Shown here piece after piece: positions 21,341 to 28,738 of a DNA stretch of 28,814 bases (positions are counted from its first letter, which is position 1; every line of letters starts with the position of its first letter). The stretch is from Thermodesulfobium sp. 4217-1 (GTDB taxonomy: Bacteria; Thermodesulfobiota; Thermodesulfobiia; Thermodesulfobiales; Thermodesulfobiaceae). The notes beneath the pieces were generated by a model. The model worked only from the letters and a program-made list of their open reading frames with translations, was not told where the DNA came from and did no database searches. Both the position numbers and the translations under genes were made by a program. The stretch lies in contig NZ_JBAGBW010000023.1 in NCBI RefSeq assembly GCF_039822205.1, positions 1-28,814 on the forward strand. The letters run 5' to 3'.

Positions 21341-22198
21341 TCAGAAAATTTTATCATCATCATCATCATTCCAAACAAACGCCTTTAGGAAATATTGCAA
21401 CATATAAAGTTTCAATATATCGCTCATACCACTTTCTGAAAGCTCAAAAACAACTATAACGCCTTTCCAATTAACCTCTTCAGATAATATTTTTATATTA
21501 TTGCATCCTAATTTAACTGCACAATTGTTAGAAATGATGATCAATCTGCCATTTGTTTCTTCTATAATTCTTCTTAAAGTATACAAACCATAACCTGCAT
21601 GATTTATTTCTGAATAATAAAGGTTAACTTTAGATGGTGGAGAACTAACCCCTTTTTCTAAAGCTTTTATTATTGCTTCACTCTCTGTAAAGACATTATA
21701 TTTTCCTCTCAAATTAGATAAAAATCCTACACCTCTGTCAATTATACATATCTGAATTTTACCCTTTTTTGAGAAATACTGTCCTGATATAACAGGTGTT
21801 CTATCGCTTAAAGAATGATATACAGCGTTATTTAAAAGTTCACCAGTCATATATATCAAATAATCACTTAGATCATTTTTGTCTTCTTTATGCAAGTTAC
21901 GGATTATTAAATTAACTATTTTATTGCCATTTTCTCTAATATTATTAAAGTCTACAATTTCTAAAGGAATATAATTTTTATCTATATTATATTTAGAAGA
22001 AAGAGTTTTTATATAACTAGATGATAAATATGAAGGATTTGTACGTACATTAAGATTAGAATTTTCTAGTTCTAAAGCTTTCAATATTGCCCCACCTATA
22101 GGTTCAATAAACCAGTAGTTTGAAACATTAATCTCATTTTGACTTATTTTTACAAAATTATTGAATTCTTCAACAAAATTTTCAAAAGTAAAATCCAT
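21341..22198 (-). CDS. Histidine-kinase-type ATPase (GHKL) partner of a STAS-like protein
   Basis: A 285-aa soluble protein with a GHKL ATP-binding fold: N-box GELLNNAVYHS (Glu120, Asn124, His128), G1 box IDRGVGF (153-159) and G2 box HAGYGLYTLRR (200-210). There is no HisKA or sensor domain; the N-terminal 115 residues are of unknown type. This points to an anti-sigma-factor-like or regulatory kinase rather than a two-component sensor. It follows the STAS-like gene by 15 nt. The C-terminus carries five aspartates encoded by a GAT repeat. Ribosome binding site is weak, suggesting coupling. Function is inferred from motifs and partner; substrate and signal unknown. Confidence 0.75.
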   Translation of the reverse strand: MDFTFENFVEEFNNFVKISQNEINVSNYWFIEPIGGAILKALELENSNLNVRTNPSYLSSSYIKTLSSKYNIDKNYIPLEIVDFNNIRENGNKIVNLIIRNLHKEDKNDLSDYLIYMTGELLNNAVYHSLSDRTPVISGQYFSKKGKIQICIIDRGVGFLSNLRGKYNVFTESEAIIKALEKGVSSPPSKVNLYYSEINHAGYGLYTLRRIIEETNGRLIIISNNCAVKLGCNNIKILSEEVNWKGVIVVFELSESGMSDILKLYMLQYFLKAFVWNDDDDDKIF

Positions 22199-22213
22199 TT
22201 TAATAATCTTATT

Positions 22214-22516
22214 TTAAGCAGTCTTCATCTTTTTGCTATAGCTTACAACAAAATTCAAAACATCTTTTATTTGCCCATTTGTATTAATTAAACCTATATG
22301 ATTTTTTACAAATTCTACACCTTTATTGCGAACTATTACACCTATTATCTCATCTCCAAAAGACTGAGTAATAAGGACAAACCCTTCAAAATCAATCACA
22401 ACTTTATTATCATTTTCTAATATTTTTTCGATATTTTTTCTCACAATTAATCCATCATATCTTGATATCAAATTATCAGAATCCGAGAACAGACTTTTTA
22501 ATTTTACAATTTCCAT
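22214..22516 (-). CDS. STAS-like protein (DUF4325 family)
   Basis: A 100-aa single-domain protein. The pattern LISRYDGLIVRKNIEKIL (16-33), VVIDFEGFVLITQSFGDEIIGVIV (39-62) matches the DUF4325 STAS-like family: a start with an SR pair, then a hydrophobic strand with DF.G and a [Q/S]SF.DE helix. Proteins of this family tend to be encoded next to GHKL ATPases, as here. By analogy with partner-switching anti-anti-sigma factors it may be the ATPase's phosphorylation or binding partner, but the typical phosphorylated serine is not obvious. A strong site (GGGGAGG) precedes the ATG, and a promoter lies at 22552. Confidence 0.75.
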   Translation of the reverse strand: MEIVKLKSLFSDSDNLISRYDGLIVRKNIEKILENDNKVVIDFEGFVLITQSFGDEIIGVIVRNKGVEFVKNHIGLINTNGQIKDVLNFVVSYSKKMKTA

Positions 22517-24450: not shown

Positions 24451-24505
24451 AGTTTACTAATTTACTATACTATTATTGTATAATAATTTACCATTTTAGT
24501 AAACT
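24451..24505 (-). terminator. Terminator at the end of the RiPP cluster
   Basis: On the minus strand AGTTTACTAA and TTAGTAAACT form a perfect 10-bp outer stem around a 35-nt AT-rich loop that can itself fold (a small TATTA/TAATA stem). A TTATTTATAAAAAATTT stretch follows. It begins 2 nt after the exporter stop codon. Confidence 0.6.
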
Positions 24506-24506
24506 A

Positions 24507-26201
24507 TTAAATTTTATAATCTGTTTTGTCTGTTTTAAAAATCCTGCCCTCTTGAATAACCAGAAGATAATCAGAATATCTTAAGTTCTCAGGCCTATGG
24601 GTAGTATAAACAATAGTCTTGTCTTGAAATCTGTTCATAATATTCTCAAATAAGTCTTTTTGTGTGTTTATGTCGATTGCCGATGTGGCCTCATCAAAGA
24701 TAAAAACTCCTGCGTTTGTGAGCAAGGCTCTCGCAAGAGATATTCTTTGTCTTTGCCCCTCAGAAAGCATATATCCCCTCTCCCCCACATGAGTGTGGAT
24801 TCCATCTGGCAAGTTTTTTACAAAATCATCTAAACATACAATTTTTAAAATTTCATCTATATCGCAATCTGATTTATCAAAATTCGAATATTTTATATTT
24901 TCAAGAATTGTTCCATTAAACAATATTGGTCTTTGCCCAACCAAACAAATGCTATCTCTGAGTGATCCCAGTTTGAATTCCTTTATATCTTTGTCATTTA
25001 TGAGTATGTCACCCATAGTGGGCTCAATAAAGCGAATCAACAAAGAGGCGATTGTAGTCTTGCCAGATCCAGACTTGCCAACCAAAGCAACCTTATCAGA
25101 ACGAAAAATTTTAAAATTTGCGTCTTTAATTAGCAGGTCATTAGATTCATACAAAAAGTTGACATTTTTAAACTCAATATAGTTAATGATGTTATTTTTT
25201 ATACATTCATGTCCATCAACTATTAGTTCGTTTTCATTTAGGAGAGATAGAACTCTTTCTATACCAGCCCTCGATTCATAATATAGGCTAATGCTCTGAG
25301 AAATGCTGTTAATAGGTCCATATAAGGACTCTAAGTAAGAAATAAATATTATCAAGTCTCCAATGGTCAAATCATTTGACAAAACCTGTTTTACCCCAAA
25401 CCACAATATCACTGCAGTACCCAAAGCGATTAGAACATTTACAACCCAGGCATGAATAGTTTCAAAAATATTAAGTTGGAGATTTAGACTAAGCGCGTCG
25501 CTGCTGGAGGTTTGGAATTTTTTGTATTCAGAATCTTCCATGTTAAAAATTCTCACGATATGCATATTATTTAAGAAGTATTCCACCGTAGACAATAGCT
25601 TGCTCTCTTTTTCCCTTAACTTATTTGAAACCTTAAAAATAGCCTTATTTAGAAAAGAGATAGACAAAAACAAAACAGGGATAGTAAAGAAGAATACAAA
25701 TAAAAGCTTTTGATTGATTTGAAATATCACAATAAATATTCCAAAGAGAAGAATTATTGAAGAAATCAAAGGAAAAATTATTTTTGTTGCTATGACCTGA
25801 ATTGACTGAGTGTCATTTATAGTTCTATATATTATGTCACCTGCTGATTTTTTATTAAAATATGAGATCTGAATTTTCTGTAATTTTCTATAAATATCCA
25901 ACCTAATATCGGTCAATATTGCGTTTCCAAAATATATTTTAGATATATTATTCAGCAGTACAAACGCGCCTAACAGAAAATATATTAATACAAATGACGC
26001 ACAAAGAATAAATAGTTGGATATCGAAAGGCAGATAACCCACAGCACTAAAAGGCAGATTTTTCTTTTCAATTAGATAATCAAATGCAAATTTTACAGGC
26101 CAGGGCTTAAGAAGTTGAAATAGTTGGATAAAAAGAATCTGAAATATTATAAAAAGTGTAATTTTTTTATAACGAAAGAAAAACTTAAAAATATCTTTCA
26201 T
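24507..26201 (-). CDS. ABC exporter (fused membrane and ATPase domains)
   Basis: A 564-aa half-transporter that works as a dimer in the inner membrane. Six membrane helices cover about 12-310, and the ATPase domain about 340-555. Motifs: Walker A GKSGSGKTT (375-383), Q-loop Gln423, signature LSEGQ (479-483, one change from LSGGQ), Walker B VFIFDE with Glu504, and the H-loop His535. There is no C39 peptidase at the N-terminus, so it probably exports without itself cutting a leader. It starts 11 nt after the ATP-grasp gene and ends at the cluster terminator, so the likely cargo is the modified peptide, or a general lipid/drug. Confidence 0.9.
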   Translation of the reverse strand: MKDIFKFFFRYKKITLFIIFQILFIQLFQLLKPWPVKFAFDYLIEKKNLPFSAVGYLPFDIQLFILCASFVLIYFLLGAFVLLNNISKIYFGNAILTDIRLDIYRKLQKIQISYFNKKSAGDIIYRTINDTQSIQVIATKIIFPLISSIILLFGIFIVIFQINQKLLFVFFFTIPVLFLSISFLNKAIFKVSNKLREKESKLLSTVEYFLNNMHIVRIFNMEDSEYKKFQTSSSDALSLNLQLNIFETIHAWVVNVLIALGTAVILWFGVKQVLSNDLTIGDLIIFISYLESLYGPINSISQSISLYYESRAGIERVLSLLNENELIVDGHECIKNNIINYIEFKNVNFLYESNDLLIKDANFKIFRSDKVALVGKSGSGKTTIASLLIRFIEPTMGDILINDKDIKEFKLGSLRDSICLVGQRPILFNGTILENIKYSNFDKSDCDIDEILKIVCLDDFVKNLPDGIHTHVGERGYMLSEGQRQRISLARALLTNAGVFIFDEATSAIDINTQKDLFENIMNRFQDKTIVYTTHRPENLRYSDYLLVIQEGRIFKTDKTDYKI

Positions 26202-26212
26202 TCTATATGAAG

Positions 26213-27163
26213 TTAATATCTTGAAAATGGAATGGTATAAAGAGGCGTATCGGGTGAAATTTCATTAATAACTTTATCCAATAGTTTAAGCTTTCTCTCA
26301 GAATCTAACCATGCCCATTGCCCGTTTGGGTTTATCTCCAAAAAATAGTACTTATCTTCGCCATATAGAAAGTCAAACCTTCCAAAGTGAAGTTTTAGTT
26401 CTCTCATAAACTGAAAAATAGAATCCCTTACACAGTCTGGCAGAATGTGTGGCAACCACATATCAGTAGTAGTATCAACCGAAAGCTCTCTCCAGTCAAT
26501 CGTTTTATCAAGAAAAGAAGTTCTATCAAGTTCAAAAGCAAATATTTCATCCCTTACAAATACTACCGTAATGTCCTTCTGAGAGTGAACATACTCCTGA
26601 ACAAACCATGGACAATTAACATCTAACTCATTTTGATTCACTTTAGTAGCGAAAACTACCGATCCATCCTCAGAAATTGGCTCAGATGTAAGGCTCTTAA
26701 TAATAGTATCACCTTCTGTATTGAGTTTCTTATCAAAACCATATCTAAAAATATATTTAGGCACATTAAAGAACTTTTTAGCACATTTTAGTTGAACAAA
26801 TTTTCCCACTCTATAATCCACAAGGGGCTCAGTTAAAACAATTTTACCTTCAGACCATAGAAGATTGATTATCTCTCTCATTACATACCATATCTCTATT
26901 TCATAATAAGCATCTTCTGAAGATAGCCTTTCTTCAGGAAATAGATCTCTTATTCTGGAAGGCTTTCTCCAAAGAACCTTTGTAATGTCCTTATCGGTAA
27001 CGTATCTACCTGTAGGGTCCTCAATCTTAAATGAATCTTCATCTATAAATATTTTATAATCTTTAAAAATATCAGTATTAAATCTAAATACCTTATCCTC
27101 GCCAATATAATATACTAAAAGATCTACAGTCGTATCATATGTAGTAGAAAATATAAATAACAA
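26213..27163 (-). CDS. MvdD-like ATP-grasp RiPP ligase (graspetide synthetase)
   Basis: About 316 aa. Signatures of ATP-grasp peptide maturases (MvdC/MvdD, grasp-with-spasm group) are visible: LFIFSTTYD at the N-terminus, WRKPSR (65-70), IIKSL (154-158), WFVQEYV, DWREL (223-227), FGRFDF and FLEINPNGQWAWLD (274-287). The last is the hallmark of ligases that join Asp/Glu side chains to Ser/Thr (ester) or Lys (amide) in a precursor peptide. The ATG at 27193 lies inside a terminator stem, so I chose a TTG at 27161-27163 with AAGGGGG a few nt upstream. It lies between a candidate precursor and an exporter. The family call is sound; the exact peptide product is inferred. Confidence 0.85.
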   Translation of the reverse strand: MLFIFSTTYDTTVDLLVYYIGEDKVFRFNTDIFKDYKIFIDEDSFKIEDPTGRYVTDKDITKVLWRKPSRIRDLFPEERLSSEDAYYEIEIWYVMREIINLLWSEGKIVLTEPLVDYRVGKFVQLKCAKKFFNVPKYIFRYGFDKKLNTEGDTIIKSLTSEPISEDGSVVFATKVNQNELDVNCPWFVQEYVHSQKDITVVFVRDEIFAFELDRTSFLDKTIDWRELSVDTTTDMWLPHILPDCVRDSIFQFMRELKLHFGRFDFLYGEDKYYFLEINPNGQWAWLDSERKLKLLDKVINEISPDTPLYTIPFSRY

Positions 27164-27175
27164 GTAATCCCCCTT

Positions 27176-27212
27176 AAAAAAAGTTGCCCACATCCATCAA
27201 ATGGACATGGGC
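27176..27212 (-). terminator. Intrinsic terminator/attenuator between precursor and ligase
   Basis: Minus strand: GCCCATGTCCAT, loop TTG, ATGGATGTGGGC, giving a 12-bp stem with two G-U wobbles, then AAC and seven T. The run ends just before the AAGGGGG site of the ligase. It is a strong terminator inside the operon, so most transcripts would stop after the precursor and fewer would reach the ligase and exporter. Confidence 0.8.
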
Positions 27213-27222
27213 TCAAGTTTAG

Positions 27223-27414
27223 CTAAGAATCCCCTTCAGTTGACTTGCTTTCTCCGTCGAACATCGTAGAGCTTTTCATGCTGTATTTAATCAACTTAAG
27301 ATCTTTCCCTACCCAGCGCCTTTGCATAATGTGATCGTACGAACCAGTTTCAGTCAGTAATTCATCTTTTGAAATAGAGAGCTTTGATCTTGATAAATCT
27401 CTTCCCCTTAACAT
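27223..27414 (-). CDS. Candidate graspetide precursor peptide (63 aa)
   Basis: A 63-aa peptide, too short for a normal enzyme, with a very good ribosome binding site (AAGGAGG, 7 nt before ATG) and an extended -10 promoter upstream. The N-terminal half is basic (RGRDLSRSKLS), like a leader. Residues 26-34 (YDHIMQRRW) could be a recognition segment. The last 20 residues hold nucleophiles Ser45, Lys47, Ser48, Ser49, Thr50, Ser56, Lys57, Ser58, Thr59 and acceptors Asp53, Glu55, Glu60, Asp62, as expected of a core for ester/amide crosslinks. The motif KSST..DGE then SKST.EGD looks like an imperfect repeat. No known precursor family is recognised. Position before the ATP-grasp gene and the attenuator support the role. 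Confidence 0.65.
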   Translation of the reverse strand: MLRGRDLSRSKLSISKDELLTETGSYDHIMQRRWVGKDLKLIKYSMKSSTMFDGESKSTEGDS

Positions 27415-27456
27415 CCCTTAACCTCCTTAATATAGCTTAATCTAAATACTTATTGT

Positions 27457-27484
27457 ATTATACCATAAATAATATTTAGATCAA
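27457..27484 (-). promoter_or_regulatory. Promoter of the RiPP cluster
   Basis: Minus strand: TTGATC (27479-27484), 16-nt spacer, perfect TATAAT (27457-27462) with a TGG just before it, giving an extended -10. Start near 27450, about 36 nt before the precursor ATG. Confidence 0.7.
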
Positions 27485-27625: not shown

Positions 27626-28738
27626 TTGACTATATACGAAAAATTAACTATTTATTTTCTGGTAATTATAGGCTTTATGCTTGGTTTTGCAGGCTTAGTT
27701 TTTCCACATCAAAAAGACCTGCTTATTTGGACATCTTCTGAATCGTTTCAAATCCAGCGTCTGCATATATTTTTCTTCAATCTAATTGTAGGAGGGACAG
27801 TTATATTATGGTTTACAAATAAAGAAGTTAGGTTTTCAAAAAACACATGGCTTTATCTGGCAATATCGTTTCTTTTCAGTATAAGTGTTTTTCTAAACCT
27901 CTATATGATCTCATTAATTTTAGGAGCAGCATTAGTCTTGCTTGTTGAAAGAGTTAGGATTCATCATTTTGGATTCTTTCCATTTTCCTTCTTTAATTAC
28001 AAAGTTCCTGTTGAAAGAAAATTCCACTTAGCTTCGTTGCTTTGCCTGTCAATTGGGATAGTTTTAGCTGAATTAACGATTTTAAATAATTATTATTTAC
28101 AAATATTGCCCTCAAACGTTTTGCCTTTAAATTATTTTTATCTAGGATTTTCCTTTCCGCTGTCTTTAATAATATTTTCAATAATTTACGATCTAATGGG
28201 TCACAAAGATGATCCGATTTTAAAAATGCAAGAGGAAATCAGTTTTTGGTTTGTAAACATTGGCGTTATCATATTTTTCATATTTATAATCTTAAAAATA
28301 GCAATAGGAGAGATTATTTGTGCTAGTTTATTAATAATCTATATAATATTTACTCTTTATCTGTTTCTTAAAAACTCCACTTATTTTATAAATAAAAAGT
28401 TTTTAATATCTGGAATTTTTTTTCTTATTTTAACTTCTCTCACCGGACTTTCAATGATATGCTTACAATTTTTTCATCCAGATATCTCTATCTATCAATT
28501 CTTAAACAGCCTATTACTGCAAATGCACGGATATTTAGCCCTGTATGGGTGGTCACTCTCAGGTTTGATTGTGATAATTAGAAATTTAGATATTCAGCAA
28601 AAATTTCAAAGCAATAAAAAAATACTAATTCATTGGTTTTTGTTAGTTATAATAGTTCCAATTGGAATTTTAAATCTGTGGTTTGCTATTTTAGCTATTC
28701 CGATATTTCTTATATATTTTTGGTCTACTTTAATATAA
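27626..28738 (+). CDS. Uncharacterised polytopic membrane protein
   Basis: A 370-aa, strongly hydrophobic protein with about 10-11 predicted membrane helices. Starts with TTG; GGTGAT lies upstream as a modest ribosome binding site. Conserved-looking histidines are in helices: His47 in QRLHIFFFN and His301 in MHGYLALYGW, a pattern seen in haem-copper oxidase-like and NnrS-like membrane proteins, where a helical His holds haem or metal. That comparison is only suggestive and no family is firmly recognised. It is the only plus-strand gene and is divergent from the RiPP cluster, so it could be an immunity or associated factor, or simply unrelated. An AT-rich terminator follows. Confidence 0.75.
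   Translation: MTIYEKLTIYFLVIIGFMLGFAGLVFPHQKDLLIWTSSESFQIQRLHIFFFNLIVGGTVILWFTNKEVRFSKNTWLYLAISFLFSISVFLNLYMISLILGAALVLLVERVRIHHFGFFPFSFFNYKVPVERKFHLASLLCLSIGIVLAELTILNNYYLQILPSNVLPLNYFYLGFSFPLSLIIFSIIYDLMGHKDDPILKMQEEISFWFVNIGVIIFFIFIILKIAIGEIICASLLIIYIIFTLYLFLKNSTYFINKKFLISGIFFLILTSLTGLSMICLQFFHPDISIYQFLNSLLLQMHGYLALYGWSLSGLIVIIRNLDIQQKFQSNKKILIHWFLLVIIVPIGILNLWFAILAIPIFLIYFWSTLI

Follow-up and report, generated by a model that had tools for sequence, protein, structure and literature searches.

A probable graspetide-type gene cluster whose peptide-ligase pair recurs in two bacterial genera

Introduction

Graspetides are ribosomal peptides whose precursors adjoin an ATP-grasp ligase and carry Ser, Thr or Lys donors and Asp or Glu acceptors in a C-terminal core. 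The ligase phosphorylates an Asp or Glu side chain, and a Ser, Thr or Lys side chain then attacks (PMC13097080). Published sets comprise 43 RODEO groups (PMC13097080) and 174 precursor families (PMC8939145), and about half of the precursors in the latter carry the leader motif Phhx(1,2)h. Since so many families are already described, one more is an increment. In the microviridin and chryseoviridin systems (MdnB, MdnC, AMdnB, CdnC; NCBIfam MvdC, MvdD), a small precursor adjoins its ATP-grasp ligase, acidic residues follow hydroxyl residues in the core, and some clusters include an ABC exporter.

Here we describe a locus in a stretch of 28,814 nucleotides, referred to as the window, in which all window positions are counted. 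It probably represents a graspetide-type RiPP cluster, in which a ligase would make rings in the core of a small peptide and the product would be exported.

Results

Gene order and conservation

Three genes in the same direction occupy positions 24507-27414 of the minus strand and encode a 63-aa peptide, an ATP-grasp ligase and an ABC exporter (Table 1). All three elements that an earlier note had placed in a minus-strand unit are thus present. Their order is identical in 4/4 genomes of the window's phylum, namely the window genome and three companions, all of one genus that we take to be Thermodesulfobium. Genes resembling iscS and iscU follow the exporter and were left out of the cluster. 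The iscS-like gene in G001 (L031) has only a 285-aa ORF versus 402-423 aa in the others, from a frameshift or a sequencing error.

Table 1. Features of the peptide-ligase-exporter locus in the window
Feature	Position	Strand	Evidence or remark
Promoter-like site TTGATC-16-TATAAT, TG before second hexamer	27457..27484	(-)	Upstream of peptide gene; best-scoring site
63-aa precursor peptide MLRGRDLSRSKLSISKDELLTETGSYDHIMQRRWVGKDLKLIKYSMKSSTMFDGESKSTEGDS	27223..27414	(-)	Purifying selection; orthologues in four species; second-genus homologues with KSSTxFDGES
Terminator-like hairpin between peptide and ligase genes	27186..27212	(-)	Hairpin at same site in 7/7 loci
Graspetide-type ATP-grasp ligase, 316 aa, TTG start	26213..27163	(-)	NCBIfam maturase models; PDB macrocyclases by sequence and fold
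ABC exporter, 564 aa, membrane domain and ATPase, without peptidase domain	24507..26201	(-)	Pfam; synteny in four species
Weak AT-rich inverted repeat after exporter, possible operon end	about 24505-24451	(-)	z -1.75; terminator scan did not pick it

The three orthologues of the peptide are 86-98% identical to the window peptide, and a dN/dS of 0.04-0.16 over all pairs in the four-genome genus shows purifying selection. Among the four species, there is a single variable position between residue 36 and the C-terminus. Identity between G000 and G002 is 86% for the peptide, 81% for the ligase and 68% for the exporter. On this comparative evidence the 63-aa ORF is a real gene. The cassette pattern likewise exceeds chance, judged from the synteny in four species, the purifying selection on the peptide gene and the recurrence of the peptide-ligase pair in another phylum.

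Several observations concern the surroundings. A 370-aa membrane protein without Pfam or NCBIfam match is encoded divergently from the peptide gene (27626-28738, plus strand); a relative stands at the same place in G001, and in G002 this place is taken by other ORFs, one of them transposase-like. At 21341-22516 on the minus strand, neighbouring genes encode proteins of 285 aa (weak HATPase match) and 100 aa, the shorter of which seems to resemble a STAS-like DUF4325 domain; the two are possibly a regulatory pair.

Hairpin and promoter-like site

The hairpin consists of 12 pairs followed by a T run. All seven loci have a hairpin at this position, between the peptide gene and the ligase gene (z -2.2 to -4.5); its stem differs in sequence for G002 and for the second genus described below. 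A terminator-like hairpin ahead of the ligase gene is also what attenuators have, and the 63-codon stretch might then be a regulatory leader controlling that gene and not a peptide gene. We consider this very improbable, as selection on the codons is purifying, all seven precursors keep exactly 63 codons and align without gaps across two phyla, a Shine-Dalgarno site is present, and Rfam gives no match.

The promoter and terminator in the earlier note hold in part. The promoter-like site exists, is an extended -10 site and the best of 24 candidates, with its -10 stretch TTATGGTATAAT largely kept in orthologues, but the number of such sites is near chance for an AT-rich stretch. As for the terminator, a clear terminator-like hairpin is found, yet between peptide and ligase, and the repeat after the exporter is AT-rich and weak.

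Precursor peptide

The peptide likely divides into a leader of about residues 1-43 and a core of about residues 44-63. S/T/K account for 10 and D/E for 4 of its last 20 residues, with the candidate donors K47, S48, S49 and T50 ahead of the candidate acceptors D53, E55, E60 and D62, so that a ribosomal peptide of the kind described for graspetides adjoins the ligase. Across the seven peptides of two genera, 22 positions are invariant, including Q31, R32, R33, G36, K47, S48, T50, F52, D53, G54, E55, S56 and D62.

The microviridin core TxKxPSD and leader PFFARFL are absent from all seven precursors, as the earlier note had stated for the window peptide. None of the seven contains a proline, and the Phhx(1,2)h motif is therefore missing as well; the 63-aa peptide has no GG cleavage site. 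Homologues were found neither in plasmids nor in viral contigs, and a precursor profile run on about 190 other genomes gave only weak, chance-like matches, the second genus being reached through the ligase search. AlphaFold gives no confident structure for the precursor (mean pLDDT 45), as expected for a leader-core peptide. The computed monoisotopic mass is 7226.63 Da for the precursor and 1663.65 Da for its tryptic fragment SSTMFDGESKSTEGDS, with an expected loss of 18.011 Da per cross-link. Because the core allows several donor-acceptor pairings, we assign no ring pattern.

Ligase family and fold

The ATP-grasp ORF contains WRKPSR, DWREL and FLEINPNGQWAWLD. Its start is most likely the TTG at 27163 (316 aa) and not the upstream ATG (27193), because the four orthologues align from MLFIFSTTYD, the frame of G002 opens there, and an AGGGGG ribosome site precedes it. 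Among all NCBIfam models searched, strong matches are limited to GRASP_SAV_5884, MvdC, MvdD and grasp-with-spasm (2.6e-27 to 6.6e-16). The scores lie far under the curated cut-offs of all four maturase models (94.9 and 84.6 bits versus 425 and 475 for MvdC and MvdD), and the ligase is therefore not a member of the named subfamilies. A sequence search of the PDB returns CdnC, AMdnB, MdnB and MdnC, and weakly 9bou (PruB); strong E-values are confined to macrocyclases.

The fold agrees. In a Foldseek search with the AlphaFold model (20-row alignment, mean pLDDT 87.8), the first 31 rows are all graspetide-type ligases, with CdnC, MdnC, AMdnB, PruB, MdnB and PsnB ranking before all other ATP-grasps, and ArgX and RimK come next; the eight best VIA-align entries are likewise graspetide-type ligases. 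The Foldseek rmsd is high (about 15 A), which makes the domain placing in the model unreliable; for the ATP-grasp part, superposition on AMdnB, MdnC, MdnB and PruB gives 1.6-2.9 A. Residues D223, R225, D264, E276, N278 and G281 do not vary among 20 ligases. The protein thus falls in the graspetide synthetase group, as the earlier note had supposed, and a grouping with unrelated amino-acid ligases is not borne out. It is the single graspetide-type ligase of the window genome, which has no microviridin-like pair of MvdC- and MvdD-type enzymes.

A related possibility is that no rings are formed and that the enzyme instead couples an amino acid or small molecule to an Asp/Glu side chain or the C-terminus, in the manner of RimK, ArgX/LysX or the pheganomycin ligase PGM1. 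The fold list has RimK and ArgX next after the macrocyclases, with the fold in common, and distinguishing such ligases from graspetide synthetases is difficult unless phylogeny is used (PMC8939145). We nevertheless find this quite unlikely, given that four graspetide models match the window protein but the RimK family model (TIGR00768) does not do so at E <= 1, that macrocyclases come first by sequence and by fold, and that the conserved core sets donors before acceptors in graspetide-like order. Ring formation remains our preferred reading of the enzyme.

In a ligase tree with no true outgroup and a small sample of known groups, the two genera's ligases cluster together (97/97) beside the G273-class group, and all twelve are split (100/100) from 14 other ligases, two of which adjoin textbook microviridin precursors with TMKYPSD cores (e.g. 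in L039). Within this sampling, the two-genus ligases are a clade apart from MvdC- and MvdD-like ligases. A profile of four ligases has G273 and G237 as its nearest matches, a contig scan of the genomes found just one near relative, and phage records gave few, distant ligase matches.

A second genus with intact and broken ligases

In G237, a genome of another phylum, a 63-aa peptide directly upstream of the ligase aligns gap-free with the window peptide (44% identity over 57 residues). The peptide is present in 3/3 genomes of this genus, presumably Desulfurella (G237, G386 and G387), where it adjoins a ligase of the same type, and the peptides of both genera have the core KSSTxFDGES in common. 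The association proposed in the earlier note thus recurs, with a peptide gene next to the ligase in 4/4 genomes of the first genus and 3/3 of the second. The peptide was not found in the other 16 genomes of the second genus's order, nor in the remaining genomes of the phylum (25 examined in all). More distant sister ligases also adjoin small peptide genes, which are of another kind.

Of these three genomes, only G386 has an intact ligase, 54% identical to that of the window. The G237 ligase is missing about 150 residues from its middle part and continues as the tail of a TPR protein, and the G387 ligase is frameshifted and contains stops. The joined G237 gene (L061:6040-6867, minus strand) points to at least two deletions.

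Between the two broken-ligase species, the peptide has 3 synonymous and 10 nonsynonymous changes (dN/dS 0.78). The Fisher p is 0.009 against G000-G002 and 0.12 against G000-G001, for 13 changes in a comparison selected once the data had been seen. Within these small counts, constraint on the peptide seems weaker where the ligase is broken, which fits a peptide retained for the ligase's sake. Position 60 is K in both broken-ligase species and E in all ligase-bearing species, and one broken-ligase species has S49L. The two relatives may therefore serve as a small natural test of the residues that the enzyme needs, pointing at E60 and S49.

Exporter

The exporter gene begins 11 bases after the ligase stop, and its product matches ABC_membrane (1.2e-39) and ABC_tran (6.7e-28). 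Peptidase_C39 was found neither in the exporter nor in the window genome (controls positive), which sets the locus apart from the double-glycine/C39 RiPPs. The exporter is not an obligate part of the cluster, because none adjoins the intact cluster of the second genus (G386), whose exporter relatives have only about 30% identity and are located elsewhere in the genome. In place of the exporter, the region downstream of the intact G386 ligase (L071:862-4909, minus strand) encodes proteins of 297, 350 and 710 aa, the largest having TPR repeats and matching PDZ weakly. Its constant place in the first genus suggests that the exporter serves the product.

A dedicated exporter in four species, together with the fact that many RiPPs are antagonistic (PMC8939145), would also suit a bacteriocin, with the exporter giving both secretion and self-protection. 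This we hold to be unlikely, as the core stays nearly constant across the four species whereas exporter identity falls to 68%, no immunity gene is present, and each genome has one copy. A core that scarcely varies points less to an arms-race toxin than to a fixed target, for example a protease or a receptor of the same species.

Discussion

A tentative scheme for the graspetide-type cluster runs as follows. The peptide would be made in excess over the enzyme, because the hairpin downstream of its gene, acting as a partial terminator or as an mRNA 3' end, would stop or protect most transcripts. The ATP-grasp ligase would recognize the N-terminal part of the peptide and phosphorylate Asp/Glu side chains of the C-terminal core, for which D53, E55, E60 and D62 are candidates. 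Attack by Ser/Thr/Lys side chains (candidates K47, S48, S49, T50 and S56) would then close omega-ester or omega-amide rings, with 18 Da lost for each. The ABC exporter may carry the product out of the cell, and the leader would be cut by an unlinked protease or be kept.

It is also possible, as a more tentative reading, that these genes represent a graspetide lineage with a leader recognition of its own (e.g. QRR[WF]xG replacing the proline motif), a KSSTxFDGES core giving an undescribed ring pattern, and a fixed, non-antagonistic use in two lineages. If true, this would account for a core that hardly changes while the exporter does.

The nearest relatives outside the two genera are the G273-class ligases (L060, L079-L084), which have 30% identity and a small peptide gene just upstream of each. 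Their peptides differ in that the N-terminal stretch is hydrophobic and in most cases includes proline, and that the tail is variable apart from an invariant Asp-Asp; they show no evident homology to the 63-aa peptide. A likeness of SSTMFD to SGTMID of the G273 peptide was set aside, since it is not shared by the remaining sister peptides. The gene at L060:5657-5911 (plus strand) and those upstream of the ligases in L079-L084 resemble a second, different graspetide-type precursor family.

The earlier note had raised a possible new subgroup. The locus is indeed not of the microviridin type, and its ligase sits on a separate branch outside the named subfamilies, but it amounts to one further family and not to a new kind. 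Our best reading is one more precursor family within the graspetides, new in the sense of not being found in accessible text. The locus thereby contributes such a family, together with a ligase branch of its own, from lineages on which the accessible literature yielded no graspetide report and no text with both Thermodesulfobium and ATP-grasp. The minimal cluster of peptide, one ligase and pump should be easy to express.

Group 13 graspimiditides have a methyltransferase gene (PMC13097080), and the window cluster is without one. With the microviridin and chryseoviridin systems, the locus shares the ATP-grasp fold and sequence family, the adjoining precursor, the order of core residues and the exporter, but it has one ligase and not two, neither the TxKxPSD core nor the PFFARFL leader, and a separately branching ligase with about 25% identity to CdnC. 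A repeated TTxxxxEE-type core is the plesiocin-type motif, and the window peptide has no repeated core of that type. With plesiocin (PsnB) and the PruB-type actinobacterial single-ligase clusters, the locus has in common the same fold and a single ligase that would be expected to make all links.
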